From assembly GCA_964017045.1 (NCBI GenBank), contig OZ024809.1, positions 11,414,307 to 11,478,306 of the forward strand: 64,000 nucleotides of DNA. Reading direction: 5' to 3'. This stretch comes from Omphiscola glabra (Eukaryota; Mollusca; Gastropoda; Lymnaeidae). The translations under genes were made by a program, and so were the position numbers. Every line of letters starts with the position of its first letter. Position 1 is the stretch's first letter. Of this stretch, positions 8,042 to 60,200 are shown piece after piece. Under the pieces are notes generated by a model that did not search any database, had not been told where the DNA came from, and worked only from the letters and a program-made list of their open reading frames with translations.

Positions 8042-8078
8042 ATGAAACGCTTCTATATCTTTTGGTTGAATGTATTTG
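8042..8078 (+). CDS. Exon 1: signal peptide
   Basis: Encodes MKRFYIFWLNVF plus one base and ends at a GTAAGT donor (phase 1). The Lys-Arg start followed by an aromatic, hydrophobic core fits a short signal peptide completed by the first residues of cassette A. A TAG lies in frame two codons upstream. The same exon, with Arg3 changed to His, exists at 60164-60200. Confidence 0.7.
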
Positions 8079-11000: not shown

Positions 11001-14000
11001 CTCATCTTATGTCACCTGGAGATGAGAGACGCAATGAAAGACAGAAAAGGAGACATAATGAGAGACATAATGAGTGACATAATAAGAGACATAATAAGAG
11101 ACGTAATGTTAGACATAATGAGTGTCATGATGAGAGACATAATGACAACATAATGAGAAACAATCGAGACATAATGACAGACATAATGGGAGACATAAGA
11201 AAAGGCAAAATAAGACACATAATAAGGTGACTTGAGAGATGTAGTGCGAGCCATAATGAGAAACATGATTAGAGACATCAGGGTCGTAATGAGAGCAACA
11301 ATCAAAGACGTAGTGAAAAGAGACAAAATGTAAGACATAATGAGACAAATGAGAAACATAATGTGACACATAATGAGACACACGAGAGACATAATGTGAG
11401 ACATAATGAGACACATGATACACTTAATGTGAGACATGATGAGAGACATGATCGGAGACATAATGACAGACGTAATCTGAGGTATATTGAGGCACATTAT
11501 GAGAGACATAATGAAAGATATAGTAAGAGACATAATGAGATACATAATCCGAGAAATAATGAAAGTCGTCTTGAGAGGCATAATGATTGACCTAATCTGA
11601 GGCATATTGAGAGACATAATGAGAGACATAATGAGAGACATAATGAGAGACATAATAAGTGACATATTGAAAGACATAATGAGAGACATGATGAGTGACA
11701 TGGTGACAGACATAATAAGAGACACAATACGAGTATATGGTACACAATTCATTAATTTGTCGGTATAATTGGCTAGGCAGACAACTCATCAACTTGTTGG
11801 TATACAATGGCTTGGTAGACAGTTTATCAACTTGTCGGTATACAATTGCTTGATAGACAGTTTATCAACTTGTCGGTATACAATGGCTTGGTAGACAAAT
11901 TATCAACTTGTCGGTATACAATTGCTTGGTAGACAGTTTATCAACTTGTCGGTATACAATGTATTGGTAGACAGTTTATCAACTTGTCGGTATACAATGT
12001 ATTGGTAGACAGTTTATCAACTTGTCGGTATACAATGTATTGGTAGACAGTTCATCAAGCGGACCGTATACAACGCGTATAACGTAGACAGTTTATCAAG
12101 TTGATTGTATAACATGGGTAGGTATGTTCATTTACTTGTCGGAACGCAATGGCTAGGTTGAACACTATGGCTAAGACGACCAGTCTGTCTGCATACGGTG
12201 GCTAGGTTAAACACTATGGCTAAGACGACCAGTCTGTCTGCATACGGTGGCTAGGTTAAAACACTATGGCTAAGACGACCAGTCTGTCTGCATACGGTGG
12301 CTAGGTTAAACACTATGGCTAAGACGACCAGTCTGTCTGCATACGGTGGCTAGGTTAAACACTATGGCTAAGACGACCAGTCTGTCTGCATACGGTGGCT
12401 AGGTTAAACACTATGGCTAAGACGACCAGTCTGTCTGCATACGGTGGCTAGGTTAAACACTATGGCTAAGACGACCAGTCTGTCTCCATAAGGTGGCTAG
12501 GTTAAACACTATAGCTAAGACGACCAGTCTGTCTGCATACGGTGGCTAGGTTAAACACTATGGCTAAGACGACCAGTCTGTCTGCATACGGTGGCTAGGT
12601 TAAACACTATGGCTAGGACGACCAGTCTGTCTGCATACGGTGGCTAGGTTAAACACTATGGCTAAGACGACCAGTCTGTCTGCATACGGTGGCTAGGTTA
12701 AACACTATAGCTAAGACGACCAGTCTGTCTGCATACGGTGGCTAGGTTAAACACTATAGCTAAGACGACCAGTCTGTCTGCATACGGTGGCTAGGTTAAA
12801 CACTACAGCTAAGACGACCAGTCTGTCTGCATACGATGGCTAGCATACTACTGAAAACCTTGCTGTTGCGTTCAAGAAGACAACTAAGAATAATATATCG
12901 CGAAAAAAATCCACTCTCACCCACACTCCCACAACCACACACCCATACACATACCGACACACACACACAACCTCCAACTCCCTCATCAGAGTAAAACTAA
13001 CGCATGCCAGTTTCAATGTTTCCCTAGTCTCTGGTGGTCAAAGCGCTGTGGACAAGACTACAGTCGAAGAGGGTCAATCGTTTAACATTACATGCGATCA
13101 CCTCCATGTAAACGGAACCGTTCCGAGCTGCCGCTTGGTTACCTTAGAAGTGAATAAACGTATTGTTCCGGACGGCATCTCGCTACTCCTTTCTCTTCCC
13201 AACGAACACGCTGACGCAGTAAGAACATTTTGTAAATAACTTGCAGTCATGCCAATTAAAAATTGCTGCACGTCATGCTTCTCATCTTATGCTCAAGTTA
13301 AAAATAATAAGTGTTGTAAGAAATCTTTTAATAACGAAAAAAAAATTATGGTTTGTATAGATCAGCCATATTTTATAGAGTAACAACACATCACCATGGT
13401 AACAAAACATCTAACATATTTCACAGTGTAAGAGATAGCACACCCACTAAAACATCACACACACACACACATTGCACTGTGTAATACGTCATACATACAA
13501 AAATATCAAAGTATTAAAAATTTTGTTTTAAAATGTAATTTGTAGATGAACATTCCTAATCATTGGACGAAAGATTGCGAAAACCCAAATCCTGGTGTAA
13601 ACGCCACACAGGTTTATTGCAAACTAATTGTCAAAGGTGCAAAGATTTCTGACAGTGGTCAGTATGGATGTGTAATTGGCGTTAGTTGCAATGAAGGTCC
13701 GGTCACTAATTTTGCTGGCGTCTACAATGTTGTTGTCAGGAAAGGTAAAGTACAATAAGACTCTCTTTTCTTAGGCACGTTATTTAGCTTTGACTTGCTT
13801 GGATTTTCTGTGTTTGTCGTGTTTGGACATCTTTATTCTGAGACGTAGTCTAGCATGTGGACAATGTACAAAAAGTTTTCCGAGACGTAGTTTAGCATGA
13901 GCACAATGGAATATTTGTTCTAACACGTAGTTTTGCAAGTGGACAGTGCACATCTTTGTTCTGAGATCTTATAGTTTAGCAAGTGGACAGTGGACATCTT

Positions 14001-17000
14001 TGTTCTTAGACGTAGTTTAAAATGGGGGACAGTGCCCGCACTGATAAACTATAAGAGAGGGGGGAAATGGCTATATAAAAAAAATATCATAGTTATTGGG
14101 GATATTTGTCCTAAATAATATGAGGTCTTGTTACCGTCTAGCAAACACGTAGTTAACGTATGTACGTACTGCGTGTGAATGAGGTTGTATCATCTGTCAT
14201 CTTATGTCACCTGAAGATGAGAGAAACAATGAAAGACATAAAAGGAGACATAATGATAGACATAAAAATAGATGTAATGTGAGACATAATGAGAGACATA
14301 GTGAGAGGCATAATGAGAGACATAATGAGAGACAAAATTTAAATGAGAGACATAATAAAAGACGTAATGTGAGACACAATGAGAGACTTGTCTGTATACA
14401 ATGGCTTTGGTAGACACTTCATTTGATTGTCGGCAGAAAATGGGTAGGTTTAACATTATGGCTAGGACGATCAGTCTGTCTGCCGAATGTGTCTAGCGTA
14501 CTACTGAAAACTTTGCTGTTGAGTTAAAGAACACAACACAGAATATTATATCGCAAATGAAATCCCCTCTCACCTACTCACACACTGTCACACACCCAAG
14601 TAAAATTAACTCATGCCATTTTCAATGTTTCCCCAGTCTTTGGTGGTCAAAGCGCTGTGGACAAGACTACAGTCGAAGAGGGTCAATCGTTTAACATTAC
14701 ATGCGATCACCTCCATGTAAACGGAACCGTTCCGAGCTGCCGCTTGGTTACCTTAGAAGTGAATAAACGTATTGTTCCGGACGGCATCTCGCTACTCCTT
14801 TCTCTTCCAAACGAACACCCTGAAGCAGTAAGAACATTTTGTAAATAACTTGCAGTCATGCCAATTAAAAATCGCTGCACGTCATGCTTCTCATCTTATG
14901 CTCAAGTTAAAAATAATAAGTGTTGTAAGAAATCTTTTAAAAACGAAAAAAAAAAATATGGTTTGTATAGATCAGCCATATTTTATAGTGTAACAACACA
15001 TCACCATGGTAACAAAACATCTAACATATTTCACAGTGTAAGAGATAGCACACCCACAAAAACACCACACACACACATTGCATTGTTTTATGCATCATAC
15101 ATACAAAAATATCAAAGTATCAAATAATTTTGTTTTAAAATGTATTTTTTAGATGAACATTCCTAATCATTGGACGAAAGATTGCGAAAACCCAAATCCT
15201 GGTGTAAACGCCACACAGGTTTATTGCAAACTAATTGTCAAACGTGCAAAGATTTCCGACAGTGGTCAGTATGGATGTGTAATTGGCGTTAGTTGCAATG
15301 AAGGTCCGGTCACTAATTTTGATGGCGTCTCCCATGTTGTTGTCATGAAAGGTAAAGTACAATAAGACTCTCTTTTCTTAGGCACGTTATTTAGCTTTGA
15401 CTTGATTGGATTTTCTGTGTTTGTCGTGTTTGGACATCTTTATTCTGAGACGTTGTTTATAATGGAGACAGAGGACATCTTTGTTCCGAGACGTAGTTTT
15501 TAATGGGGGACTGTAAACATCTTTGTTGTAGAACTTAGTCTAGCATGTGGACAATGTACAAAAAGTTTTCCGAGACGTAGTTTAGCATGAGCACAATGGA
15601 ATCTTTGTTCTAACACGTAGCTTTGCAATTGGACAGTGCACATCTTTGTTCTGAGATCTTATAGTTTAGCAAGTGGACAGTGGACATCTTTGTTCTTAGA
15701 CGTAGTTTAAAATGGGGGACAGTGCCCGCACTGATAAACTATAAGAGAGGGGGGAAAATGGCTATATAAAAAAAATATCATAGTTATTGGGGTTATTTGG
15801 CCTAAATAATATGAGGACATGTTACCGTCTAGCAAACACGTAGTTAACGTATGTACGTACTGTGTGTGAATGAGGTTGTATCATCTGTCATCTTATGTCA
15901 CTTGGAGATGAGAGAAACAACGAAAGACATAAAAGGTGACATAAAAATAGATGTAATGAGAGACATAATGAGAGACATAAAAATAGATGTAATGTGAGAC
16001 ATAATGAGAGACATAAAAATAGATGTAATGAGAGACATAATGAGAGACATAAAAATAGATGTAATGTGAGACATAATGAGAGACATAGTGAGAGGCATAA
16101 TGAGAGACATAGTGAGAAACATAGTGAGAGACGTAATGAGAGACATAATGAGAGACGTAATGTGAGACACAATGAGAGACTTGTCGGTATACAATGGCTT
16201 GGTAGACAGTTCATTTGATTGTCGGCAGAAAATGGGTAGGTTTAACACCATGGCTAGGACGACCAGTCTGTCTGCAAAATGTGTTTAGCGTACTACTGAA
16301 AACTTTGCTGTTGAGTTAAAGAACAAAACACAGAATAATATATTGCAAATGAAATCCCCTCTCACCTACTCACACACCGTCCCTATCCAAATTAATCTAA
16401 CTCATGCAATTTTCAATGTTTCCCTAGTTTCTGGTGGTCAAAACGCCGTGGAAAAGACTACAGTCGAAGAGGGTCAGATGTTCACCATTACATGTGATCA
16501 CCTCCATGTAAACGGAACCGTTCCGAGCTGCCGCTTAGTTACCTTAGAAGTGAATAAACGTATTGTTCCGGACGGCATCTCACTACTGCTTTCTCTTCCC
16601 AATGAACATCCTGACGCAGTAAGAACATTTTGTAAATAACTTGCAGTCATGCTTCTCATCTTATGCTCAAGTTAAAAAATAAGTGTTGTAAGAAATCTTT
16701 TAATAACGTAAAAACATATTATGGTTTGTATAGATCAGCCATATTTTATAGTGTAACAACACATCATACTAACAAAACATCTAACATTTCACAGTGTAAG
16801 ACATAGCACACCCAACAAAACATCACACACAAACATAGCACTGTGAAATACATCATACATAAATTTATTTTTTTTTAAATGTATTTTGTAGATGAACATT
16901 CCTAATCATTGGACTAAAGATTGCGAAAATCCAAATCCTGGTGTAAACGCCACACAGGTTTGTTGCAAACTAATTGTCAAAGAGGCAAAGATGTCCGACA

Positions 17001-20000
17001 GTGGTCAGTATGGATGTGTAATTGGCGTTAGTTGCAATGATGGTCCGGTCACTAATTTTGATGGCATCTCCCATGTTGTCGTCATGCAAGGTAAAGTAAG
17101 AACTGAATGTCTTTTCTAAGGCACGTTATTTAGCTTTGACATCTTTGTTCCGAGACGTAGTTTAACATGGGGGACAGTTCCCGCACTGATAAAATATGAT
17201 ATAGGGAAAAAAATGCTAATAAAAAAAGGAGCATTGTCTTCCACATTTGGGGACATATGTCCTAAACAATATGAGTAATAAAAGTATTTCAGAACTGCTT
17301 TAGATTTGGTAGTATGAGCTGTTGTCTTACGCCACAAGGAGATGAGAGAGACAGTGAGAGACACAGTGAGAGACAAAATAGGAGACATAATGAGAGACAT
17401 GGTGTCAGACATAATGAGAAACGTAATGTGAGACATAATGAGAGACATAATGAGAGACATAATGAGAGACACAATGAGATACATAAGAGGGGACATAATG
17501 AGAGACATTATGACAGACGCAATGTGAGATATAATCAGAGACATAATCGAGACAAAATGAGAGACATAATGAGAGACATAATGCGAGTCATAATGAGAGA
17601 CATAATAAGAGACACAATGCGAGACATAATAAAAGACATAATCAGGGAGATAATCGAGACATAAAGTGAGGTATAATGAGAGACATAATGAGAGACATAA
17701 TGAGTCATTGAGAGCCACAGTGAGAGACATACGAGACACATGAGTGACATAATAATAAGAAACGTAATGTAAGGCATAATGAGAGATATGATGAGTGACA
17801 TAATGATAGACATAATGAGAGACGTAATGAGAGATTTAATGAGAGACATGACCAGAGACATAATGAGACTCATGAGAGACATAATGATAGACTTAATGAG
17901 AGGCATAGTGAGAGACACGATCAGAGACATGAGAGATATAATCAGAGACTTATGAGAGACATAATAAGAGACATAATTATTGACGTATTGGAGACATACT
18001 GAGAGACAAGACAAGATACGGTTTACCTTCACCTTGATCACTTTTAATCAATTAAATTTAAATCAACAAAACTGGATATGCTTTGTAAAAGTATAAGAAA
18101 TATGCATGCTGCAATGTAATAACAACTAAGCCAGCTGATTTTAGGTGATGAACACAATTTCCAAATTTCATTTGACTTCTAACCAACTAATCGCAATCGC
18201 GTGAACTGTCACTGAATACAAAGTGTTTATTCACTGGATTACGGAGTTCATGATATTATTGCTACAGTTTTCATTGAACATCCAGCCATATTGTAAAGCT
18301 GCCTGCCAAATGATAGAGAAACAAATGTAAAAAAAAAACAGGGATATTTGAGTTTTGAATTTTCCCACAACGTTGCTCCTATTCCTTCATCTGCTGATTA
18401 ACGTAAAAAAATTATATCGTTTGCATACCGTTATGGTTTTAATGATTTAGTCTCATTATGCAAATAAATGGATACCTATGGTGGTGATTCAATTTATTGA
18501 CACTATTGAATTTCTATAACAATACAAATTCGAATACGGGCACAGAACCAAAAAGCTATATCATCTTTCAGTACAAAATTGCTAGTGAAAAGGTACAATC
18601 CTCAAAAATTACACCCGTACTAGCTTACACACTCAAACGGCTCGTATATATAAATACTAAATACCGATATACCCAGCATTTGAAAATGATAAGAAAATCA
18701 AATTTAGGTTCGGTGACTTTTGTCAAGCATCGGTTGCTAATGAAGAAGGCTACGACACTGACATGTCACCAACTATTTTAATTTAGTAGATGTCAGTACA
18801 GGATCAAACCACTCTGCCATTACATGTTAGGCATCTAGGCGTTGAGACAGACAAAAGAGCAGCGTCTAATTCATAGTTGGGCCGAAATGGATCGCCCTAT
18901 CAGAGCTCACTTGTTTTGCTTAACAATTATTTCCAACATACAAAAAACGTTTGAAGCTATAAATTGTGACAAATTAAATCCTTGACAATTTTGTCTCAAA
19001 AATAGTCCCCGTGGTTCTCTACAACTACTAACACAGAATGACATATTCAAGTCTATTTTATTTAAGAAGGAGCTTTAAGCCTATAAAACTTCTTCTTTTT
19101 TTTTTTTTTTTTTTTTTTTTTTTCAGCTACGAGCAAACCAGCAACTGAAACCAAAGCATCTGGTCCAAGCGGTGAGGATACACATCTTCTTATTAAACAA
19201 TTTAAAAATTGATTCATTTATATTTTATATTACCTTCCTTATCGATGGACCCCCGTCAATTTTCTCTCGAGAATCCGTTGGCGTCTGCTCGTCATAGCGA
19301 GGTTCCCAGAGTTGAAACACCGACACAGGGGCGCTGAAACCAATTGAGAAATAGGAATTTGACAGTTCTTTCGAGTTGTTTTCAGAGCAGTGCTCAGTTA
19401 AATTAATACAAGAACGTGGTGCCAAAACATCAGGGTGCTACCACATCAGTGTGTCGCCATGTCAAGTTGCCACCAGAGTAGGGTGTCACCATGTCGGATT
19501 GCCATAGAATAAGGTGTCACCATGTCCGGTTGCCACCAGAATAAGGTGTCACCATGTCCGGTTGCCACCAGAATAGGGTGTCACCATGTCCGGTTGCCAC
19601 CATAATAGGGTGTCACCATTCTTTTAGCTTCTTTAAGAAAAGAATGAATAAGGAACAATTCTTTTGACCGCCGGTCTTCTTAATCTTCAAATACAATACT
19701 CGTTGAACTGACCTCGCAACCTTTGGGTGTTTACAGTGTGGGCTACATACAACTTGCACACGTTCACACTATCTAACACAACAATCTAAGTAAGCCACAT
19801 ACTACATACAACCTGTACACGTTAACAATATCTATCACAGCCATCTAAGTAAGCTTGAAGATTACGACGTCAGAATTCTTACAATCACCTGATTACTTAA
19901 CATTTAAATGAGGCCCACTCTGTATTTGAGAGGCGTCTATACAGATCACCAACCAAACATAAACAAAGTCACTTCTTTACAGAGTTTTCAACATCATTTC

Positions 20001-23000: not shown

Positions 23001-24275
23001 GTCACCATATCAAGTTGCCCCCAGGATAGAGGGCCACCATATCAGGTTGCCCCCAGAATAGGGTGTCACCATATCAGGTCTTCCCCAGAATATCGTGTCA
23101 CCATATCAGGCTGTCCCAGAATAGGGTGTCACCATATCAGGTTCTCCCCAGAATAGGGTGTCACTATATCAGGTTCTCCCCAGACTAGGGTGTCACCATA
23201 TCAGGCTCTCCCCAGAATAGGGTTTTACAATATCCGGTAATCCATAGAATAGCGGGTCACCAGACAAAGTAGATTGCCATCAGAATAGATAACAAACAGA
23301 ACAGGCTGCAAACTAAGCAGGGTGCCGCCAGAGCAGGGGCGCCGAGAATCTCGATTTTTTTTTTTAAGGCCTACACTTATTTCTCACGATCTATGTGTGT
23401 GTGTGTGTGCGTGTGTGTCTTCTTCATGTGAGTGAAACTTTTAAAAACTGAATTTGACAAAGAACTCTGCCATGGAGTTATATGCTCTCTGCTCTTGTGA
23501 TTTTTTCAACTGAAAGTGATGAGAAGAATGTTGGTTTTGATGAAGTGATTGACATGTTAGCATCTTTAAAGACCATGAAAGTTAAGTTTGAAATTTCAAT
23601 ATGTAATGTTACAGTAAAAATACATTTGTTGCGTTTTTAAAGAAATGGTCGTTACCATACCTCAAATTCTATGTTTACTTCAAATGTCTTTTGTTGATTT
23701 GGTAAGTAATTGTCTAAATAATACTTTTTGCGGTATTGCATTAATTACTTTGTTTTGGTTTTGTGGGAGGGGGGTTGGGGGAGTAAAGTAAGGGAGCGGG
23801 TAACACCATGAGTTTAACGCGCAAAGGTGTCACCAACTCTTGCATCGCCTCTAGTATTATACTTTTTTGTATTACTTGCACCTGCGTGGACGACTGATAC
23901 GACGAATCCTCTAGAGCCAGGTTTGACTTCGATTTTTGAAACAGAACCTTGAGTATTGCTTTACTTCTCCATTCAGTTTGGCTCTTACTTTTACAAGGAA
24001 TTCTTTCTGCGGACCCTCTAGATTTTGACTCCGTTTTCGCAGCTGTACACCAACAGTAAGCGTTCGTCTTCCATTCATTAAGGAATGCTGAATTTAGATA
24101 CTAGATTACAGATAAATGGTGTGTAAATATACGCAAGAATACTTTTCTTTGAAAGTCAAATAAAAGTTATTTGTCAATTTCAGATAACACTACAAAGTCA
24201 GAATCACCCAGCAGCTTCGGCGAGAAGACCATCATTGGATTGTGTCTCTTGATGATAGCTGCAACTCAGCTATAA
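8042..24275 (+). CDS. Multi-exon gene for a secreted or GPI-anchored protein with four tandem Ig-like cassettes
   Basis: Gene model built from exons 8042-8078, 9729-9919, 10171-10369, 13028-13218, 13546-13744, 14637-14827, 15153-15351, 16428-16618, 16892-17090, 19127-19171, 22119-22169 and 24184-24275. Every junction is AG/GT and every phase fits; joined together they give 1785 nt, or 594 residues. Order: short signal peptide, four copies of a roughly 130-residue Ig-like domain (strand-B Cys in ITC, strand-F signature DSGQYGC, six Cys, sequons NGT and NAT), a Ser/Thr/Pro/Lys stalk from two small exons, and a hydrophobic C-terminus ending in ATQL with no basic residues after it. That tail resembles a GPI-attachment signal. 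Each cassette begins and ends in phase 1, so any number may be spliced in; a one-cassette form would be 204 residues. A role as a cell-surface recognition protein is inferred from the domain type. I cannot name a known gene. Introns are minisatellite-rich. Confidence 0.75.
8243..9140. mobile_element. Roughly 900-bp terminal-inverted-repeat element in intron 1
   Basis: Ends carry ACGATCAAATTTTC and its inverse GAAAATTTGATCGT, with related sequence further in (GATATCACC / GGTGATATC). An inner palindrome pairs GCCGCCATCTTGGTTGCCGC (from 8950) with its inverse near 9001-9020. The duplicate of this intron at 60.3 kb lacks the whole block, so it is probably an insertion. Confidence 0.55.
8735..8850. 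repeat. Tandem array, 23 bp x 5
   Basis: Unit GATAGGGTCAAAACCCTGGT plus TCC, inside the TIR element. Confidence 0.8.
9190..9515. repeat. Tandem array, about 37 bp x 8
   Basis: Units contain AGACAGTTCATCAACGTGTC and GGTATACAATGGCTAGGT. The same family lies at 11740-12140 and as single units before cassettes C and D, so it belongs to the duplicated cassette block. Confidence 0.75.
9729..9919 (+). CDS. Cassette A, first half of Ig-like domain
   Basis: 191-nt exon, phase 1 in and phase 0 out, after a TTTCCCCAG acceptor and before GTAAGA. It carries the B-strand Cys (FTITCDH), a second Cys in PSC, the sequon NGT and the block LEVNKRIVPDGISLLL ending PNEHPDA. Mature residues follow directly on the signal exon. 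It differs from cassettes B and C by Met-Phe-Thr instead of Ser-Phe-Asn before ITC, and so lacks the extra NIT sequon. Confidence 0.8.
10171..10369 (+). CDS. Cassette A, second half of Ig-like domain
   Basis: 199-nt exon, phase 0 in and phase 1 out, between a TTTTGTAG acceptor and a GTAAAG donor. It contains KDCENPNPG, the sequon NAT, VYC, and the Ig F-strand signature DSGQYGC followed by a second SC. The residue after IVK is Asp here and different in each cassette. Cassette A also has Ala-His where B to D have Thr-Asn after GPV. Confidence 0.8.
10470..10815. repeat. Tandem array, about 34 bp x 9
   Basis: Units with GGGACGTAATGAGCACAATG and GACATCTTTGTT. Related copies follow cassettes B (13810-14035) and C (15430-15720). 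Confidence 0.75.
11012..11735. repeat. Array of GAGAGACATAAT-type 10-14 bp units
   Basis: Imperfect short units; the source of several spurious open frames on both strands. Sister arrays lie ahead of cassettes C and D and after cassette D. Confidence 0.85.
11740..12140. repeat. Tandem array, about 37 bp x 10
   Basis: Same family as 9190-9515 (AACTTGTCGGTATACAATG). Confidence 0.8.
12150..12845. repeat. Tandem array, 49 bp x 14
   Basis: Very homogeneous unit containing GGCTAGGTTAAACACTATGG and GACGACCAGTCTGTCTGC; a single unit stands ahead of cassettes A, C and D at the equivalent place. High identity suggests recent expansion before cassette B. Confidence 0.9.
13028..13218 (+). CDS. Cassette B, first half of Ig-like domain
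   Basis: 191-nt exon, phase 1 to 0, acceptor TTTCCCTAG. Nearly identical to the other copies. It has the substitution giving FNITC, a third sequon next to the B-strand Cys, and Ala in place of Pro in NEHADA. Reading through its donor gives VRTFCK and a stop. Confidence 0.8.
13546..13744 (+). CDS. Cassette B, second half of Ig-like domain
   Basis: 199-nt exon, phase 0 to 1. Variable residue after IVK is Gly. The G-strand region is the most altered of the four copies (NFAGVYNVVVRKG), while DSGQYGC and the other Cys residues are intact. Confidence 0.8.
14205..14395. repeat. GAGACATAAT-type array before cassette C
   Basis: Short-unit array equivalent to 11012-11735 within the duplicated cassette block. 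Confidence 0.8.
14637..14827 (+). CDS. Cassette C, first half of Ig-like domain
   Basis: 191-nt exon, phase 1 to 0, acceptor TTTCCCCAG. Has FNITC like cassette B, and NEHPEA at its end (Asp to Glu). Flanking intron sequence is also close to that of cassette B, which points to recent duplication or conversion. Confidence 0.8.
15153..15351 (+). CDS. Cassette C, second half of Ig-like domain
   Basis: 199-nt exon, phase 0 to 1. Variable residue after IVK is Arg. All cysteines and DSGQYGC are retained and the exon closes with VVVMKG. The acceptor is a T-rich tract ending TTTTTTAG. Confidence 0.8.
15905..16175. repeat. GAGACATAAT-type array before cassette D
   Basis: Short-unit array with an additional AGACATAAAAATAGATGTAA higher-order unit repeated four times. 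Confidence 0.8.
16428..16618 (+). CDS. Cassette D, first half of Ig-like domain
   Basis: 191-nt exon, phase 1 to 0, acceptor TTTCCCTAG. Starts with SGGQNAVEKTT (Asp to Glu and Ser to Asn) and then returns to the cassette A form MFTITC, without the NIT sequon. It therefore looks like a mosaic of the other copies. Confidence 0.8.
16892..17090 (+). CDS. Cassette D, second half of Ig-like domain
   Basis: 199-nt exon, phase 0 to 1. The conserved VYC is VCC here, which adds a seventh cysteine. Variable residue after IVK is Glu. It also has KMSDSGQYGC and CNDGP. An odd Cys count could permit disulfide-linked dimers, or mark relaxed constraint. Confidence 0.78.
17335..18010. repeat. GAGACATAAT-type array after cassette D
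   Basis: Longest of the four sister arrays. No further Ig cassette follows it, which suggests either the end of the expansion or loss of a fifth cassette. Confidence 0.8.
18016..19126. other. Intron sequence between cassette D and stalk exon 1
   Basis: AT-rich. From about 18700 it is similar to 21640-21990 (shared GACATGTCACCA, GTTGAGACAGACAAAAG), marking the stalk-exon duplication. Ends in a long T tract. Confidence 0.5.
19127..19171 (+). CDS. Stalk exon 1 of the Ig-cassette gene
   Basis: 45-nt exon, phase 1 to 1, after a 27-base T tract ending CAG and before GTGAGG. Encodes ATSKPATETKASGPS, a Ser/Thr/Pro-rich linker suited to a membrane-proximal stalk. The exon and about 400 bases upstream resemble 21650-22169, so the two stalk exons arose by duplication. 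Confidence 0.6.
19430..19625. repeat. Tandem array, 31 bp x 6
   Basis: Unit GGTGTCACCATGTCCGGTTG plus CCACCAGAATA; related to the arrays at 22640-23260 and 28990-29160. Confidence 0.85.
20055..21338. repeat. Tandem array, 29 bp x about 44
   Basis: Unit GCCAGTTTATGGCTGTGTGA plus TCACCAATT or CAACCAATT variants. Alternation of variants indicates higher-order blocks. It lies in the intron between the two stalk exons. Confidence 0.9.
22119..22169 (+). CDS. Stalk exon 2 of the Ig-cassette gene
   Basis: 51-nt exon, phase 1 to 1, T-rich acceptor and GTGAGG donor. Encodes DTRKTETITFVPTAGPN. Its ending (GPN before Gly) parallels GPS in stalk exon 1, and flanking DNA matches as well. Confidence 0.6.
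22335..22615 (+). mobile_element. Penelope-like 3' end, duplicated copy
   Basis: Shares GTATCTCTAAATAGT..., CACTGCCTGTAATCCT and the ATCAAGAAGGCTG...AAACGTTCATAACTTA motif with 28700-28960; carried along by the segmental duplication. Confidence 0.55.
22640..23260. repeat. Tandem array, 32 bp x about 19
   Basis: Unit GGTGTCACCATATCAGGTTG plus CCCCCAGAATAG. Shorter partner at 28990-29160 in the duplicated segment. Confidence 0.85.
24184..24275 (+). CDS. Terminal exon with hydrophobic C-terminal tail
   Basis: Acceptor TCAATTTCAG, entry phase 1, stop TAA at 24273-24275. Encodes a polar segment with sequon NTT and SPSSFGEK, then TIIGLCLLMIAATQL to the end. Small residues, a short spacer and a terminal hydrophobic stretch with nothing behind it match the layout of a GPI-attachment signal better than a transmembrane helix with a cytoplasmic tail. 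Confidence 0.7.
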
Positions 24276-29160: not shown

Positions 29161-30019
29161 ACAAGACAAATTAGATTGCCATCAGAATAGATTACAAACA
29201 GAACAGGCTGCAAAATGAGCAGGGTGCCACCAGAGCCGGGGCGCCGAGAATCTCGCCAAATAATCTCTTTAAGCCTACAATCATTTCTCACGATCTATGT
29301 GTGTTTGTGTGCGTGTGTGTCTTCATGTGAGTGAAACTTTTAAAAACTGAAATTGACAAAGAACTCTGCCATGGAGTTATATGCTCTCTGCTCTTGGGAT
29401 GTTTCAATTGAAAGGGATGAGAAAGTAAAGTTTGAAATTTCAATATGTAATGTTACAGTAAAAAGTAAATTTAGTGCATTAAAAAAAAAATATTACCGTT
29501 ACTCAAATTCTATGTTTTCTTCAAATGTCTCTTGTTGATTTTAGTAAGTAGTTAGAAAAATACTTTTTGAGGTATTTCATGATTTTCGGTGAATGGGGGC
29601 GGCGGAGTTGGGATTCGGGAGTCGAGACAAGGGTGCGGATGACACCATGAGTTTAACGCTAAATGTGTCACCAACCCTTGCGACGCCTCTGGTGAGGCAT
29701 AATTTTTTTTTACTACTTGCACCTGATTGGGCGACTTACATGACGAATCCTGTAGAGTCAGGTTTAACTTCAAATAAAACAGAACTTTGAATATTGCTTT
29801 ACTTCTTCATTCAGTTTGGCTCTTACTTTTACAAGGAATTCTTTCTGGGCATCCTCTAGATTTTGACTCCAATATCGCAGCTGTACACCAATAGTATGCG
29901 TTCGTCTTCCACTCACTACGAAATGATGAATTTAGATTCTAGGTTATAAATAAATGCTGTGTAAATATACGCAAGAATACTTTTATTGAAAGTCAAATAA
30001 AAGTTAATTTTAGTTTCAG

Positions 30020-30111
30020 AATCCAATACTGCGTCAGAAGCGTCCAGCAACTTCGGCGAGATGACCATCATTGGATTGTGTCTCATGATGATAGCTGCAA
30101 CTCAGCTATAA
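30020..30111 (+). CDS. Duplicate terminal exon with hydrophobic tail
   Basis: Acceptor TTAGTTTCAG, entry phase 1, same 92-nt length as 24184-24275. It encodes ESNTASEASSNFGEM followed by TIIGLCLMMIAATQL and TAA. Open frame, acceptor and tail hydrophobicity are all kept. It may be an alternative last exon of the cassette gene or the remains of a duplicated gene whose upstream exons decayed. Confidence 0.5.
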
Positions 30112-33019: not shown

Positions 33020-33243
33020 AAATATTCATAATGCATGTTTTTTAGCTAAAGTTATTAAATTTAAATTTATTGAAAAATATTAATGTAATTTATAATTGTA
33101 ATTTTTGAAAAATCCACCTTCAAAGGGTTGCATTTAATGCGATAAAAAAAACATTGGTCTTTGAGTCTCTGGTCGTAATGGTTATCTTGAAGGAGATGCT
33201 GTGGATGTGATAAGTGTTGATATTTCGGGGGTAATTGACATGG

Positions 33244-34150
33244 TTAGATGTTCGCCTTGGAAGTGATCGTTGTTTGGGAAACTGTCAAACTAGTTGCAAT
33301 GGCGAGGTTCGCAGTGATGTTGGGATTTGTTGTGTTGATGGGGCTAACGGCAGTGTTGAGTTTAACAGTGTTGGTAGGAGATGCTACACTTATAGATGTG
33401 CTTGAGGTGTCAATGGGTGTCAGGGTGGACTGTTTTAATATAATACCCGAAGATATTGTTTTAGTTGGTGGATGATGGGGTAATGGTGGTGGATGATGGG
33501 GTAATGGTGGTGGATGTTGGGGTAATGGTGGTGGATGTTGGGGTAATGGTGGTGGATGATGGGGTAGTGGTGGTGGAGGAGGAAATTTTGGTATTTGATT
33601 TTTTTTGAATTTTTTGCCTAAGGACATTGGAGGAGAGGTTTGGATTTGTTGGACCTCCATAGCCACTTTCGAGTAGTCTTTCTTATGTTGACAGTCTACA
33701 GCCGGTTTAGAATCGTCTTGCTCATACTGATTATCCAAAATTGGTGCATAGTTGTGATAGTCTTGAGTGTCCGAAACTGGTGAATAGTAGTGGTAGTCTT
33801 GACTGTCCAAACCTGGGGCATATTGGTGATAGTCTTGATTGTCCGAAACTGGATCGTAGTGGTGGTAGTCTTGACTGTCAAAAAGTGGTAAATACGGGTG
33901 ATAGTCTTCATTGCCCAAAACTTGCACGTAGTTGTGATAGTCTTGATTGTCTGAAACTGGTGAATAATAGTGCTGTTCTCCTTGGATGTCCCTAGCTGGT
34001 GGGACAGGGGCACAGCGCTGTTCCTGTTGGATATCAATTACAAATAGAGACGGGTTTTCTGCGCTCCTTTCGGTCAGGGCATTATGACGAGTTCGTTCCA
34101 TTTCATGCTCTGTCGTAACTTCCACTTGAGGAAAGAATCTCTCACGTACA
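33244..34150 (-). CDS. Receptor exon 6: cytoplasmic tail
   Basis: Acceptor TTTATCTCTATTTTAG, entry phase 2, stop TAA at 33244. The 302 complete codons begin VRERFFPQ. Residues about 246-333 are 12-residue repeats of the form D-x-Q-D-Y-H-x-Y-x-P-x-x. Then come lysine-rich segments (KKDYSK, GKKFKKN), FPPPPPLP and five PPPLP-type units, and a Ser/Thr/Asn-rich C-terminus. Both the tyrosine and proline blocks are coding minisatellites, so length polymorphism is likely. Confidence 0.85.
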
Positions 34151-37100
34151 CTAAAATAGAGATAAACAACGAATATAAATGCATTGGTTGATATTCTAAA
34201 AACATTCCTAATCTTAATGGTAAGTATTTAAAAAACAACATTGTTTTCCATTTCCTAGATTCAATTATAAACGGCTCAAATTTTGGCCATTTGTAAGGTG
34301 ACGTAAGTGAAATTAATTGGACATTAATTAACTTAGCAACTAAAGAATATTAAACTATATTAGTTGATCAATACATTTTTTCAAAGTTAAACTTACTTTT
34401 GGAAACGTGAATGAATTCCTAAAGAAAAATTGAGGGAAAAAAATAAAACAAGTTATTTGTTTGGATGTATCATTTGCTAGTTAACAGAGGCGTAGCTAAG
34501 GGGTGGCAGACGTTAGATCTGCTGTGGGGGGGGGGGGTGTAAACGGGCTTCGATGGTACTTAATGGTTCAAAATAATCAGTTTCAGATTTGAGCAAGGCA
34601 TAAAAATGAACTTGCCAATACATGCCAAACACTGTAGATATGATTCTGTTAGTGGCGTCGAAATAGAGTGGATGGGGTGGTCCACCCATGTGCCATTTTT
34701 TCTTTATCAGCGGATGTGGCATTTTCGGACAAATGCAGAGTTTGTATATTGAAAAGGAGGTTGCGCAAAAATATGTGCACGCCCATGGCGGCAATAATAG
34801 TGGCTGCGCCTCTAGGCAGTGTATCTATTGATACCAAAATCGGCGATCATTTTCATAGGAAGGAGGGTGGAAATTGAGGGCACTGATGAATCTTAAAATT
34901 AAAAGGGGCTTGGCAGCTTGCTCCCCAGAAAATATTTGATTATTTCAAAATCACGGGGTGTATTTTTGAGTATACTTTAATTCAATGTTTCTATTATAGA
35001 ATATTTTATACATTTTTAAGGTTTTGTGGGAGGCATTATGGCGTCTTCCGGCATACATAAAATGAATTTACTCCGTTTGTTTCGTGCCCCAGGTAATCAT
35101 TTGGCACAAGCTTATAATCTACCATATACTGTAACATTAATCAGCGTTAGTGAAGGGGTGGAGAAATTGAGTCTGTTAAAGACATTCGGGCAAATTCAAA
35201 ATGCAAGGGTTCATTTTGGCGCATACTTCAATTTGTTGTTTCTTTCAGAGAATTTTGAGGTTGCATTTCAAACTTTCGGTTGGGGAGTGCCAAAATTAGC
35301 CATAATAATGATTTAAGACATCTTAAATTCCGCACCAGTGTGATTCAAACTATATTCATTCTAGTTGTGTCACCCTTGGGGGTAACCTTTGGCCCAGATT
35401 AATATCGCCTATTACAGCTGTCCGAAAACTCATTTGTCAAAAAAGCCAAAAATCAGCAATAGGACGATTAAAAAATTGTCGAGAGCCAAAGTTTGTTGCA
35501 AGAACTTGTTAAGAACCATGTTTTTCGGAGTCAAAACCGATTTGTGGCCGCACTCAAGTGGCTAAAGAGCTGCATGCGGCTCGCGAGTCGCGGTTTGTCG
35601 ACCACTGTACTATTAAATCTTTATAGTCCAGAGAAATTTTTTGATAACTTAAAAATACAAGAATGCATTTTATAACATATCTGAATTTAGTTTTGCAACA
35701 TTCTACACCTAATTGGAGAGCAACTGAAGAGATCCTAGTTTTAAAATGTACGTGTCACTTAACCTAGAGCCATCGTGTGCACCTAGCAACTATTACAATG
35801 CTGGGTGCCTCGGATATTTTAATGTTTTAAAGATGTGATAAAAATATTTTCTTTATCATTATTTTTCAATGCAGGTTGCAAAAAAAAAAAAAAAAAATTT
35901 AAAAAGGAAAAAAAAAAGTGGGTGGGGGTCAAAACAGAAAAGTGCTTGACCTGCTTGTGTTATGCAAAAAAAATTTTTATATTGCTATAAAAATAGTGAT
36001 ATGGAATTTTTTTTTTACATTATTTTTTAGCTTCTTAATTATTAAATGAATTTTCAACACATAAATTTAAAAAAAAGGATTCCATTAAAAAAAATCTCTG
36101 CAGACATGTTTTTATATGCTGAACGCAAATGGAGGAAAAAAAATACTTATTTATAATAATTAGACAACCCTTTCTAAATATTTAATTAGGAATAAGAATT
36201 TTTTCTAAAACTAGTATCAACAATTTTTTTTTTTATAGAAATGACAATCTCAAAATTCTAGTTCACAAAAAAAAAAATTATTATTTTGTTTGTTTGTTTG
36301 TTTTTTTTTGTTTGTTTGTTTTAGCTTTCTGATAGATTCCCATCTTGAATACAAAATAATTTTTTAAAAATTCGTGCAAATAGGTGGGGCATAATATATA
36401 TAGGCTTTGCATTTCTTAAACCTCTGTTACGCCGGATTTTTATTTTACAAAAGTAGTACATTAAAAGAAAACTCAAAAGTTTTCGATATAAAAACCGATG
36501 AAATGTGCACTTTTTTTATGCGCCCGTTCAATTCTTAATTTAAAAATAAATATTATCTAATTTTTGGAAGTTTCTATTTTTTTTAAAACTCAGCACAAAT
36601 GAAATCGATTAAATTTTATTTATTTTTTAAATACTTAATCCATCACACAATTGTACGAGTTCGGCGTAAACAAACAAGTTATTAACATACTCTAAAGTGT
36701 ATCAATTTTAAGCCTACTAAACTTCAGTATTATCTGCTGGTATGGGAGTTTATCCTTTGACATCAAACACCGATTAACTAGACCAATCAAGAAAGCTATT
36801 GATATAACACAAACCAAATACCCTTTACTTAAAGAATTTGAAGAAATATTATGTTAAACTAAGAAGAAAAAAATGATACGTTAAACCCACTTCATCACAG
36901 TTGCCCAAAGGTCAGCTTGACCAAAGCCAATTCTTTCTCTTAAATATAGGACAGAGAGATACAAAAAAAATGTATTCCCCAGTCTGTACGAATTTACCGG
37001 GTTGCCCCCCCCCCCCAACCCAGCGGCTACGAAATAAAAAATGATCATTAATTAAGTAATTATTATCACTAAATGAGTTCATTGACTGATTTCTACGCTA

Positions 37101-40100
37101 GAGAAATTATTTAGGTCTTCTTTTTAAGTTGTTATAATTGTAAAATGCTGTTTTTTAAAAAAAAAAAATATGTATCAAGCTGTCCGTACTAAATACGGAC
37201 GTCTGGTAACCCTAATTACGGACCACTTTATTTCCTACGGAAAGTTTAAATATATGTTTATCGGACGGAAAAGGGTGAATTCAAAAGATAAGTGTTTGGA
37301 TTAGAGTCTTTCCAGTATTCGTACCTAGGAAAATGTGTTTGTTGAGTCCCGTTAAATTTTATGTGACCTTGTCGTACAGTTTGTCCTGTTTTGTTTGTTT
37401 TTGTACTCATACGTGTTTGACTTGCAGGTGTTTAACTTAACAGGTGTTTAACTTACAGGTGTTTAACTTACAGGTGTTTAACTTACAGGTGTTTAACTTA
37501 CATGTGTAAACTTACAGGTGTTTAACCTATATGTGTTTAATTAACAGGTTTTTAACTTACAGATGTTTACCTCACATGTGTTTAACTTACATGTATTTAA
37601 CTTACATGTGTTTAACTTACATGTGTTAACTTACAGGTGTTTAACTTACATGTGTTTAACTTACATGTGTTAACTTACAGGTGTTTAACTTAAAGGTGTT
37701 TAACTTATATGTGTTTAATTAACAGGTGTTTAACTTAAAGATATTTACCTTACATGTGTTGAACTTACATGTGTTTAACTTTTATGTTTTATGTTACATA
37801 TCTTTAACTTACATGTGTTTAACTTACATGTGTTTAATTTACAGGTGTTTAACCTATATGTGTTTAATTAACAGGTATTTAACTTACAGATGTTTACCTC
37901 ACATGTGTTTAACTTACAGGTGTTGAACTTACACGTGATAACTTACACGTGATAACTTACAGGTGTCTAACTTACCGGTTTTTGTAAGTTTTCTCCACAT
38001 GGCAATCGCTGGAAAGACAAGTGACACACATCCAAAAACTACTGACACGCATATAAGAACTGCCTCGAGATTTGAAAGCTTAAAGGTCTGAAAAAATGGT
38101 TCTGAAATAAACGAAGAATACCAAATTAATCTGTCAACTAAAACCTTAGGAAGCAATTTCAAAGCAACTTCTTTTTAGTTTACTTTCTATAGTTAAACAA
38201 CTAACAAATTACATGTGACATAAATACATCTTATAACTGTATTTATAAAAGACCAAAATGACACAGATTCATGTTAAGAAACAATGTTGTTTAGGACTGT
38301 GATGATGTTCCTTACGTCAACTTAGTTTAAGTTAACGTCCACCATCTCATCAATTAAATTCTCACCAATGCAATCGGGAACATTTCCCTTATGTAAATTG
38401 AGTAGACTATATCTATTGCGTCAAATACGTTCTCAACTTTGCTGTCGGTAACACTGCACTAGAGTATAGACTGAGTATGTCTGTCACATCAAACATGTGC
38501 TCGCCTTTGCAATCGGCAACATTGCAACTCAGTATAGAAAGAGTATGGCTTTCTCATTAAATAAAATCTCACCTTTACAATCGGGAACATTGCACCTCAG
38601 TATACACTGAGCATGAATACCTCATCAAATATGTTCTCACCCTTGACCACGTTAGCATTGCACATCTGTATAGACCGAATATGTATACCTCATCAAATAA
38701 GTTCTCGTCTTTATCTCGGGAGTTTTACACCTAAGTATAGACTGAGTATGTCTATCTCATCGAAAATATTCTCTCCTTTTCCCTCGAGAACATCGCAACT
38801 CTCTATGGACTGAGTATTCCTAACTATAACTTCAATCAAGTTCTCATCCTTAAATTCGGGAACATTGCAAATCCGTGTAGTCTGACTATGTCTATCTCAT
38901 CAAATAAGTTTTAACCTTTGCACTAGGAAACATTGCACCTCAATATAGACGGAATATGTCTATCACATCAAATACGTTCACAGCTTTGCATACGGGAATA
39001 TTCCACCTCAGTATAGACTGAGTATGATTATCTCAGCAATCAAGTTCTCACCTCTACACTCGGGAACAAGGATTTGCGTTGTATAGTTTGGCACTGTGTT
39101 CCATGTATATTCAACCACACACACATAGTTCGCTTTGACCAGGCAATCGAAGGACACGCCCACATTCACTGTATAAGTTGTTTGACGGGTAGTTCGGTTG
39201 ATGCAATACTGAAAACTAGCGTCCTCTGAGGCACCTTGAGTAAAGATCTGAAAATGCATATCTAAAGATGTATAATTTGGAATAACAAGATGTTCGGACT
39301 GCGCATTATTTCCCTTGTGTTGATGTGCGGCTCAATATTGAGTCCTAAAAAGTGATTGTTGAAAGTAATTAGCTATCGTGTAAACTGAAATATGAACTCT
39401 GCATAAACCTGTAAATATGGTACATTTCTATGAATTATATGCATGAACGAGTTAAATGCTGATTCATCATTTTAATGGAATGCTACTTACACTCCCAGGT
39501 TCTTTGTGTGTTGCGTGTATGGTAAATTATGCGTGTTGGTTGGAAAATGTATGTCTTGTGTGTTATTTAAGTTTTCATTTTTTCATGACATGTTTAAATT
39601 AAAGCGAGTCAGAGAGCAAAAGTTTCTTGATTATATATACATATTCTGTAGGTTTTTCCCCCCAGTCGCTGAGTGCACTGGGCAGGTTCATTTAGACATT
39701 CTGAGACTCCTTGTCACACATAGCGTAGTTTACATCCATACTAAGACTGATTCCCACACATAGAGAATACTTTTCACCGACCATTTAGCCTTAACATTTC
39801 ACTCTAGGCGACCATTTAGACTTAACATTTCACTCTAGGCGACCATTTAGACTTAACATTTCACTCTAGGCGACCATTTAGACTAAACATTTCACTCTAG
39901 GCGACCTTTTAGACTTAACATTTCACTCTAGGCGACCATTTAGACTTAACATTTTACTCTAGACGACCATTTAGACTTAACATTTCACTCTAGGCGACCA
40001 TTTAGACTTAACATTTCACTCTAGAAGACCATTTAGACTTAACATTTTACTCTAGACGACCATTTAGACTTAACATTTCACTCTAGGCGACCATTTAGAC

Positions 40101-43100: not shown

Positions 43101-46100
43101 AAACCAGGGCGTTGGTGGAATTGGGAATTAAAGAAAGCCTACTTTCGGTTAAATTTAAAGGACTTCTGAAATTAAACAATTTTATTGAAGAATGTCACAA
43201 GCAATAAAAACCATCTGAGGGCATTGAAGTATTTGCGTCAGTCAACTAATTGACGAGAAGGAAATCTTTCTTAAAGGAATGAAAATACAACATGGAATCA
43301 TTGAAGTCGTTGGAAGATATGTTTGAAATTTTCTTCTTGAAATGTATCTTGTTTTGGTTCATCACTTCGATTCTTTAAAACAGTGATCCCCAAAGTTGTC
43401 TATATCGACCTCCAGGGGTCGAAGACAACTTGCAATGGGTCTGTGTCAGAAAATAAAAAAATTGCAGGTCCATGAAATGAAAATGGGGGTCCATGATAGT
43501 GGATCTCATGTAAGCAGGTCCTGATTTCTATTTTGGCATTCCATGAATGGAATAATCCACATACACAGTACCTATTTACTTACATAATATTACCTAATAA
43601 TATAAAGACATATATCTTCCTACATAAATTATAAACGTACCAATGAAGTAAACATTGTAAAGACATACATGTTCATGAAACGTCATGAAGAATCCTATTA
43701 AAAATAAATTCTTAGTAATATTTTCTGACATATGAATATAAATTTAAATCTTTCAGAGTAGGTAGCACCATACCGGCGGTCAGAAATACATTTGAAGTTA
43801 ATGAATTTGCATAGAATCAATATCAGGTAAGCAGGGGCTCTACCCAAAACCGAACAACATGGCAAGTGGTCTACGAGACAAAACAGTTTAGTGATCTCTG
43901 CTTTAAAATGTAATTACATTAATTACAATTTTTATCAATCGTATTGCAATTGTTCAAAGCTTTCCAGTGAATCTGTTTGATTATAAAATAAATAATACGT
44001 TTGATTCATTTATGGAAAGACTATATTGGTGATATCAGTTCCCACCTCAGTGTTAATTTATTTTTATTTTGATTAAATTTCTGTCAGTGAACTGCCTATC
44101 AATGAAATGTCTGTCAATGAAATTTGTGTCAATGAAATAGATATCAATGAAACTATTGCCAATGAAATGGATGTCAATGAAATAACTTTCAATCAAATGG
44201 CTTTCAATGAAAGGCTGTCAATGAAATGATTTTCAATGAAATGACTATAAATGAAAAGACTTTAAATGAAATAACTGTCAATGAAAAGAATGTTAATAAT
44301 ATTTATGTCAATGAAATGACTGTCAATGAAATGGCTGTCAATGAAATACCTCACAATAAAATGCCGGCAAATGAAATGACTGTCAATGTAATGAGCGTCA
44401 ATAAAATGGCTGTCAATGAAATAAATGCCTATCAAGAAAAGTCTTTCAATGAAATGGTTGTCAATAAAATGCCTCTCAATAAAATGCCTGTAAATGAAAT
44501 GACTGTCAACGTAATGAGTGTCAATGAAATCGCTGTCAATGGAGTGACTTGCGACCACCCCCCCACCCCCGCTCATAACAGTACAACAAAAGAATCACAA
44601 AAAGTTCATATTACATTGATGAAAAAAATGTACCATGACACAGATCGACTTTAAGAACAAGGGCATATAAAACAAATGCCGACAAGTATTTAAGCTAATG
44701 TATTGAAGACTTTTGGATTATACTTTTTTTGCATATTGAATTAGTGTAACAATCATACTGTTTCTATTCTCAGAACAAAAGATGTTAATTTAAAAAGACT
44801 TAATGAGTTCATTGGTGTCAGTAAAATATACTTACAGATGTGTTCTGTGTGTCGTTAGGGACGGCAGTTATCAACATGTCCAAAGTTCCGGTGATATTCT
44901 TAGCCACTTGAATGTTCGTCAGTTTATATTCCTTGTTTTGTATTAATGACACGGTGCACTCTAACGTGTCTTTTAGGTGGTTATCAGCAAGCTTCACGTC
45001 AACTTGACCTGTAGAGGAGATTTTATTAAAACATAATCAGTTATTATACCATAGGCGTGCGGTTGAAGAGTATCCAAGATAAAATTCTCAATTAATCTGA
45101 GGTTATATGAAAAACAATGTGATCTTATGAGATTTCTGGTATATCGTGACCTCATTTGAGGAACTCTGTAATTACTTGAGATTTCTTTAAGAACCATAAT
45201 GATAATCTTTGGATTTTTTTATAAACTCTGTTTTAATCTTAGTTATTTGAGGAATCATATTGATAATCTTAGGTTTCTGTGATGAACGATGTTATAATCT
45301 GAGATTATTTTAGCAACCATATTCATAATATTTGGTTTATTTCACGAACTCTGTGATTAACTAAGATTAATTGAGTAACTATATTGATAATCTTAGGATT
45401 ATATGATGAACGATGTTATAATCTGAGATTATTTTATCAAACATTGCTAATCTTAAATTTATTTCATAAACGCTGTGATAACCTAAGATTATTTGAGTAA
45501 TCATATTGATAATCTTAGGATTATTTGATGAACTCTAGGATAATACGACATTATTTCAGGAAGCATGTTGATGAAATTAGATTTATTTGATGAACTATCT
45601 GATAATCTGAGATAATTTGACTAACCATATTGATAATCTTAGGCTACTAATTGTGTTCCACGAGACAATGCTACTTGTGTTCCACGAAACAGAGCTACTT
45701 GTGTGCCACGAGACAATACTGACTCTTTGCCACGAGACAATACTGACTGTGTGACACGAGACAATACTGACTGTGTGCCACGAGACAATACTGACTGTGT
45801 GCCACGAGATAATACTGACTGTGTGCCACGAGACAATACTGACTGTGTGCCACGAGACAATACTGACTGTGTGACACGAGACAATACTGACTGTGTGCCA
45901 CGAGACAATACTGACTGTGTGCCACGAGACAATACTGACTGTGTGACACGAGACGATGCTGACTGTGTGACACGAGACAATACTGACTGTGTGCCACGAG
46001 ACAATACTGACTGTGTGACACGAGACGATGCTAACTGTGTGACATGAGACGATACTAACTGTGTCACGAGACAATACTGACTGTGTGCCACGAGACAATA

Positions 46101-54001: not shown

Positions 54002-54393
54002 AATGGACTACGATTAGTCACTTCCTTGTTTTGTCACGTGATACGTACCAGCCATTAGTAGGCTTTCTGCTACACATAACAACACATAACAACAGATAAA
54101 CAGCTGATCAGCCATTGCCATTATCATTAATTCTAAAGCAAAATGTTTGTCTCCATCAGCGCTTCCCCAGTGTTTATTAAAAATTTTACTTTTCAAAATA
54201 TTCTTGAATACACGCGTTTCTTTAAATGACATTCATTAAATGTGACAATAATTATAATTCAGTCATGATTAAAGGAAGAAAGTTGTTTGAAGAAAAATTT
54301 GTGAGCGACCAGTGTGTTGCAGACAGCCTCCCGGAAGTATTACTTGTTTTTACACGTATCACGTGACAAAACAATCGACTAATCGTAGTCCAT
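54002..54393. mobile_element. MITE-like element with 43-bp inverted ends
   Basis: Left end AATGGACTACGATTAGTCAC through TTTTGTCACGTGATACGT; right end is the inverse (ACGTATCACGTGACAAAAC through CGTAGTCCATT). About 300 bases lie between with no transposase. Confidence 0.7.
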
Positions 54394-58645: not shown

Positions 58646-58811
58646 CAAGAGCGTAGGCTTATATAAATAAGAATGAGCTAATCTGACAACAAAGATAAAG
58701 AAATAAAACGATTTAAATACGTTTGGATTCTAAAAAACAATGATAAGGATTTGTTACACTATTTTTGTGAAATCGAAAATTTTTTTAATCACCAGAAGAA
58801 ATATATTCTAT

Positions 58812-59415
<604 letters not shown>

Positions 59416-59997
59416 TATCATCTAATAAAGTCTTGACACATTTCTTTCTTTGAAAATTAAAAATTCGCTTGGGTAAAATGATTTGGTTTTTATATTCATG
59501 GGTATACTTTTGTAAATGTAATTACGATTTGTTAACGTCAATTATTTTGTTAATTGTTAAAATGAGAATATAGCATCTATTTTCCACATCTGTAATATCA
59601 TTGGATTTAAAGAAATTGTCATCCATGAAAATTTGTACACAGGCTATTTCCAAACCCCATATTTTTGTACCTAAGAATGTTAATTATATGTCAAATTCAT
59701 TCAGAGTCGAATTGTGTGCTGCCTTGTGCAAATGAAACTATCGTTTTACTTCTTCCCCCTCCCCCAAACAGAGTCTTAAAGAAATTAATAAAATCATCCA
59801 CGGGATTGTAACCCCCTTATTTACGCAAAAATTATTTTTTTTGCATTTCACATGCTTTATTATTATTTGGATGAGTGATAAGTGCATTAGTGAATGTTAC
59901 GTGGATAAGTAGTTTCGCTGCTTTGATTGCATTAAACGTCATTATCGTATTAAAAGTATATTTTAATTTATTCGATTTCCGAAATAATTAGAAAATT

Positions 59998-60163: not shown

Positions 60164-60200
60164 ATGAAACACTTCTATATATTTTGGCTGAATGTATTTG
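60164..60200 (+). pseudogene. Orphan duplicate of the signal-peptide exon
   Basis: 37 nt coding MKHFYIFWLNVF plus one base with an intact GTAAGTGTG donor. Homology to the plus gene continues into intron 1 (to about 60405, CTTCAACAGCTTGTCGACAG), then stops at a LINE. No Ig cassette follows inside the window. It could be the 5' end of another family member whose exons lie beyond the window, or a dead fragment. Confidence 0.55.

Follow-up and report, generated by a model that had tools for sequence, protein, structure and literature searches.

Tyrosine motifs in the cytoplasmic tails of invertebrate immunoglobulin (Ig) receptors are established (PMC11999971, PMC12065747, PMC6851185), and several described systems can be set beside the locus considered here. 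The FcoR proteins of Botryllus are presented as Ig-domain type I receptors with a long tail and a core tyrosine motif, Y-x-x-I/L/V; half of these motifs carry an upstream acidic residue, and splicing has been proposed as a functional switch at two loci (PMC12065747). The oyster CgIgIT2 is described as a molluscan protein with five Ig domains, a transmembrane (TM) segment and one classic ITAM (PMC11999971), and the tail of arthropod Dscam is described as having exons that carry motifs of SH2, SH3 and ITAM type and are included or skipped, with shifts of frame (PMC6851185). Serial tyrosine motifs are also reported for p130Cas, a cytosolic scaffold with a disordered, proline-rich substrate domain containing 15 YxxP motifs for SH2 adaptors (PMC3983058), and a further report deals with the docking of Nck and Grb2 on unstructured tails that bear phosphotyrosine (PMC9333988).

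The locus lies in a stretch of 64,000 nucleotides from the snail Omphiscola glabra (C17:11414307-11478306, analysed whole and called ‘the window’ below), and further copies were sought in the genome to which it belongs (744.8 Mb searched, in 37 contigs).

Gene model and reading frame of the tail

The gene runs along the minus strand, and its splicing as a whole is predicted from sequence. Exon 1 (54049..54127) provides a start codon and a signal-peptide-like stretch, recognised by hydropathy and a GTACGT donor, and ends in phase 1. Exons 2 (44836..45008) and 3 (39052..39247), both bounded by splice sites, encode the first and second halves of the ectodomain; the former is 78% identical to its counterpart in a sister copy on C18, and the latter has nine matches (one of them the window itself) among ten scored in the genome. 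Exon 4 (37976..38101) encodes a TM segment with basic stop-transfer residues and ends in phase 1, a 22-nt micro-exon (exon 4b, 34397..34418) leads from phase 1 to phase 2, and exon 5 (33244..34150) encodes the predicted cytoplasmic tail, 301 codons and a stop, in the one frame of six that is open throughout. A candidate polyadenylation signal (AATAAA, 33066..33071, minus strand) is found 173 nt past the stop.

With the micro-exon included, the predicted protein has 500 residues and is probably a single-pass type I, receptor-like member of a multi-copy snail family. Its signal peptide and TM segment were called by hydropathy, with no trained predictor; the TM segment holds the protein’s 19-residue maximum (2.66), and five N-glycosylation sequons lie upstream of it. 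The cytoplasmic position of the tyrosine array is predicted from these features (the signal-peptide-like and TM hydropathy, the sequons and the order of the exons). An extracellular, adhesive tyrosine repeat was rejected, the array exon standing after the TM exon in a conserved order.

The tail frame is set by the micro-exon. Exon 4 ends in phase 1 and exon 5 needs phase 2, so that joining them directly breaks the frame, and translation stops after 216 amino acids, with no array. The micro-exon element (ttctttag, 22 nt, GTAAGT) precedes the tail exon by 246 nt, and a search for this layout between the TM exon and the tail returned a single site in four of the five gene copies that were read and none in the fifth, where the same element is present as 25 nt in the same phase; the phase is conserved in all five. 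Skipping of the micro-exon is predicted to lose the array and to leave a 25-residue ending. An in-frame acceptor at 34124 and an in-frame repeat donor at 37932 were dropped for three reasons: five copies share the exon start at 34150; the TM exon of the C18 copy runs into a stop (RVSSTPVS-stop) before which a reading by hand found no phase-2 donor; and the micro-exon serves all copies. The splice-site weights used were approximate. That the tail frame is coding is supported by a comparison of two distant copies, in which omega is 0.36 for this frame and 1.31 and 1.69 for the others, with 12, 6 and 19 differences at the three codon positions.

Database searches with the receptor gene gave no Pfam match above the cut-off and two PDB sequence matches, both due to chance. 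Against a protein database that includes snail proteins, the ectodomain drew 207 candidates, none at E<=0.001, and the tail drew 214, none at E<=10; these queries came from an earlier 507-aa model that lacked the micro-exon, took 15 residues from the repeat donor, and was later abandoned. For an Ig fold of the ectodomain there was no Pfam match and no significant BLASTP result. Its exon phases are like those of the neighbouring Ig gene, with which its first half aligns at P 0.013 and 0.043 and its second half at P 0.50 and 0.43.

That neighbour, of a Lymnaea-like family, occupies 8042-30108 on the plus strand, with a signal-peptide exon at 8042-8077 and C-terminal exons at 24183-24272 and 30016-30108. 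Its Ig half-exons form four pairs in tandem (9734-17089), which would specify a protein with four Ig domains or else be alternative exons. Its closest named relatives are three Lymnaea stagnalis proteins (56-61%), each with one Ig; a model of one of these (mean pLDDT 56) matches Ig folds of the V type, with 893 PDB chains at E<=0.001. A further plus-strand signal-peptide exon (60164-60199), with 12 residues identical to a Lymnaea Ig protein, is probably the start of the next Ig gene of this family. The window also contains a TCTA microsatellite of about 156 copies (58807-59424) and a plus-strand, reverse-transcriptase-like fragment (60699-60950; GVRQGCLLSSTLFNIF ... FADDID), presumably a retroelement remnant, in which we take FADDID to be a reverse-transcriptase motif.

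In the receptor gene itself, the introns after exons 3 and 4 carry minisatellites related to the splice donor of each exon. Diverged copies of the end of exon 3, with its donor, are found at 38344-39068 (minus strand), and a 15-bp minisatellite with 22 GTAAGT copies starts at the exon 4 donor (37413..37983, minus strand). Other copies of the gene also have the 15-bp array at the TM-exon donor, that at C17:9.82 Mb being a shorter stretch.

The tyrosine array and its sister copies

The array (33728..33966, minus strand; found with TRF at period 36, 6.6 copies and 72% matches, and by translation) is built from a 36-bp unit with the consensus YSPVSDNQDYHH, the last position being variable. Translation of this in-frame repeat bears out the initial annotation, which had described seven YxxPhi-type tyrosines exactly 12 residues apart, followed at +3 by V, V, L, V, G, V and I, with a second tyrosine at -3 in six of the seven units (the first has Gln there); the numbering, given earlier as 254 to 326, is corrected to 261, 273, 285, 297, 309, 321 and 333 with the micro-exon included. 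Asp directly precedes every -3 tyrosine, and the seven array tyrosines and their six partners make up 13 of the 16 in the array stretch. The broader claim is likewise supported: the 36-bp minisatellite is coding, and it falls in what is predicted to be the cytoplasmic tail of an invertebrate protein that is itself predicted to be membrane-bound.

The description of the array as ‘ITAM-like’ stands as far as geometry is concerned, but does not extend to ITAM membership: YLPL and YAPI are 48 residues apart, so that the strict pattern (YxxL/I, 6-12 residues, YxxL/I) has no match in the tail, and a relaxed one (V allowed, 6-8 residues between) has four pairs. Six of the seven units fit the core motif Y-x-x-I/L/V, and the AP-2 YxxPhi sequence pattern is matched by six units and by YSKV, an extra motif outside the array (Tyr codon 33673-33675) that reads YSKA in the C18 copy. 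A p130Cas-like YxxP series was sought in the tail, which has only two YxxP, both YYSP. The tail, which is predicted to be disordered (mean pLDDT 45.6, from a single sequence), further contains two YHN, one YDPV, a single EVH1-ligand-like FPPPP (33571..33585, minus strand) and, behind it, five PPLP encoded by a 21-bp repeat (33466..33577, minus strand) that is 9 residues shorter in C18; YHN, YDPV, FPPPP and PPLP can be read as candidate ligands of Grb2, Nck, EVH1 and WW domains.

The seven motifs are not independent, as the units share one ancestor, and a treatment of them as independent hits was rejected for this reason. Across six units (15 pairs), pS is 0.29 and pN 0.22, and the differences by codon position (30, 51 and 46) show no bias (shuffle P 0.39); both tyrosine codons alternate between TAT and TAC while the residue is unchanged. 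Neutral evolution was simulated to the same divergence as that observed, with 2834 and 2448 of 6000 runs retained; both tyrosine columns were invariant in 2.2% and 4.4% of runs, at least four codon columns (as observed) were invariant in 5% and 15%, and the +3 residue was hydrophobic in at least five of six units in 81% and 75%. The signal within the array is weak and is carried by the tyrosines, with the +3 position drifting as if neutral. Given related units and similar neutral runs, the internal pattern is weak evidence, and comparison with a second copy of the gene is stronger.

Such copies were found by genome search. The tail gave at least 32 matches (150 scored of 920 candidates), of which three were taken as true from their flanks (the window, C18 and C17:10.90 Mb), the other 29 being at 19-44% identity. 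The five copies read were the window and those at C18:23.97 Mb, C17:10.90 Mb, C9:16.62 Mb and C17:9.82 Mb. All have the TM exon, the micro-exon and the start of the tail exon; exon 3 was found in every copy but that of the 10.90-Mb stretch, exon 2 in the window and C18 only, and exon 1 in the window alone, although the C18 stretch examined may not reach that far. Of the eight exon 3 loci outside the window, three were followed downstream. The C18 copy belongs to a segmental duplicate (C18:23940001-23980000) that is roughly colinear with 28-53 kb of the window and in which minisatellites are strongly expanded.

The number of array units is seven in the window and in C18, three at C17:10.90 Mb, and zero at C9 and C17:9.82 Mb, where the tail reads EQHFN-stop in place of EQHYYSPV. 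The units at 10.90 Mb (HYYSPVMDIEDDYHHYTPVLDNEEDYQHYTQVLDNE) are spaced at 13 residues, which gives no support to a need for exactly 12; a +1 indel earlier in the tail exon shifts this array out of the frame that inclusion of the micro-exon sets, and either the micro-exon would be skipped in this copy or the copy has decayed. By these readings the array is gained or lost within the family, and its spacing is not fixed. Among gene copies (compared here in place of alleles), the tyrosines and +3 residues do not change freely in a persisting repeat: C18 keeps all seven of each, the +3 residue being hydrophobic or identical in every unit, and the 10.90-Mb copy keeps its tyrosine and +3 Val in three of three.

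Between the window and C18, the 81 codons of the array differ by one synonymous and one nonsynonymous change (Asp to Gly; 1 per 189 sites; dN 0.005, dS 0.019), and the ectodomain by 34 nonsynonymous changes per 280 sites (dN 0.132, dS 0.073), a rate exceeding that of intron 4 (P 5e-6). In this one sister pair, and with comparison sets picked after looking, nonsynonymous changes are fewer in the array than in the ectodomain (Fisher 2.7e-7), in the C-terminal part of its exon (12 per 229; P 0.008) and in the rest of the tail (P 0.020), and also fewer than the intron rate would give (1 observed, about 9 expected; P 0.0012). Elsewhere omega is 0.64 for the TM exon, 0.86 for tail residues 1-60 and 1.46 for the whole tail; the proline and C-terminal parts together have dN 0.054 and dS 0.025, and neither the C-terminal part nor tail residues 142-188 (three nonsynonymous changes, no synonymous) is constrained. 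Divergence is 4.8% in intron 4, 4.7% in the 3-prime flank and 5.8% in a piece of intron 2, and gene conversion is a possible cause of the low dS in this region (0.02 in the tail versus about 0.05 in introns). With the array nearly unchanged and the outer part of the protein fast-diverged, the array has the look of a functional platform for signalling or sorting and not of repeat noise. We take it to be real, specific to the lineage and showing signs of constraint.

Explanations for the array

The explanation that we favour, and to which we give an even chance of being right, is multivalent SH2 docking on the array of a clustered receptor, coupled to actin. Ligand binding would cluster the receptor, Src-type kinases would phosphorylate the array, and the phosphorylated array would dock several SH2 adaptors at once, with unit number acting as valency; the FPPPP and PPLP stretch would recruit EVH1, WW or SH3 proteins, which would make actin remodelling the likely output. 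Inclusion of the micro-exon would give the signalling form, and skipping the arrayless one. We read the array in this way because a micro-exon of conserved phase puts it in the frame of the TM exon, because its amino-acid changes are few compared with the ectodomain, the C-terminal part and the intron rate, because the tail frame appears to be coding, its tyrosines fall mostly in motif columns and the tail is predicted to be disordered, and because YHN, YDPV, FPPPP and PPLP are present. Against SH2 docking stand the absence of the array from two copies, the +1 indel in a third, the whole-tail omega of 1.46 and the neutral-like behaviour of the +3 position, as well as the unconstrained stretches elsewhere in the tail, the possible gene conversion in the one sister pair and the empty database searches with ectodomain and tail.

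The main rival holds that the units are tandem YxxPhi sorting signals, read unphosphorylated by AP-2 mu, that would allow fast or tunable internalisation. The constraint on the array fits this equally well, as do L, I or V at +3 in six of seven units, but the conserved -3 tyrosine and the Asp before it have no known role in YxxPhi sorting, and a single YxxPhi signal is normally enough for sorting; we judge this reading rather unlikely. It is the comparison of sister genes that bears on a coding minisatellite merely hitchhiking in a minisatellite-rich region, with no specific docking function: arrays of period at least 7 make up 31% of the window and 46% of the span of the gene, unit number varies among copies to the point of absence in two, and patterns within the array are near neutral, all as such a hitchhiker would have it, yet the shortage of amino-acid changes relative to ectodomain, C-terminal part and intron rate speaks against it, and it seems to us improbable. 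Exon 5 might also not encode this receptor's tail at all, but be a separate cytosolic reading frame or a decayed exon. This would suit the in-frame ATG at 34101 (context GAAATGG) and the out-of-frame junction of TM and tail exons; however, residues upstream of that ATG are constrained in distant copies, and the order and phase of TM, micro- and tail exons are kept in five (the 10.90-Mb indel excepted), and we consider this very improbable.

Returning to SH2 docking, a tentative extension, possible in our view but doubtful, is that the DNA holds two controls of signalling strength in a receptor with a fast-evolving ligand-binding part: how many minisatellite units a gene carries (0, 3 or 7), and whether the 22-nt micro-exon is used, which through the reading frame would turn the whole array on or off. 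The indel of the third copy and the weak signal within the array count against this extension as well as against SH2 docking. If it holds, receptor valency would depend directly on a mutable DNA repeat, and the micro-exon, by setting the frame, would be a simple on/off control. The sister genes, with 0, 3 and 7 motifs on the same tail, offer a natural series for relating motif number to receptor output.

Comparison with described systems

Y-x-x-hydrophobic motifs in invertebrate receptor tails are already known. The snail tail resembles that of Botryllus FcoR in having Y-x-x-I/L/V motifs in a type I receptor; as compared by description only, FcoR differs in belonging to a chordate and in having single or few motifs and no minisatellite array (PMC12065747). 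With oyster CgIgIT2, as that protein is described, it shares a molluscan origin, an extracellular domain, a TM segment and a tyrosine motif in the tail, and differs in having seven repeated motifs and no strict ITAM (PMC11999971). Arthropod Dscam likewise has tail motifs subject to exon inclusion or skipping with a shift of frame (predicted in the snail), but in its description there are many tail exons, with single motifs and no repeat array (PMC6851185). The disordered, proline-rich stretch with many serial tyrosine motifs recalls p130Cas, from whose described form the snail protein is set apart by YxxPhi motifs, a tandem repeat and a membrane location (PMC3983058). In literature on tyrosine motifs, repeats and invertebrate receptor tails, none of the matches listed was a minisatellite-coded array in a receptor tail; as far as this literature was searched, what is new in the snail is an array built from a repeat, with a unit number that varies among copies and a dependence on a micro-exon.
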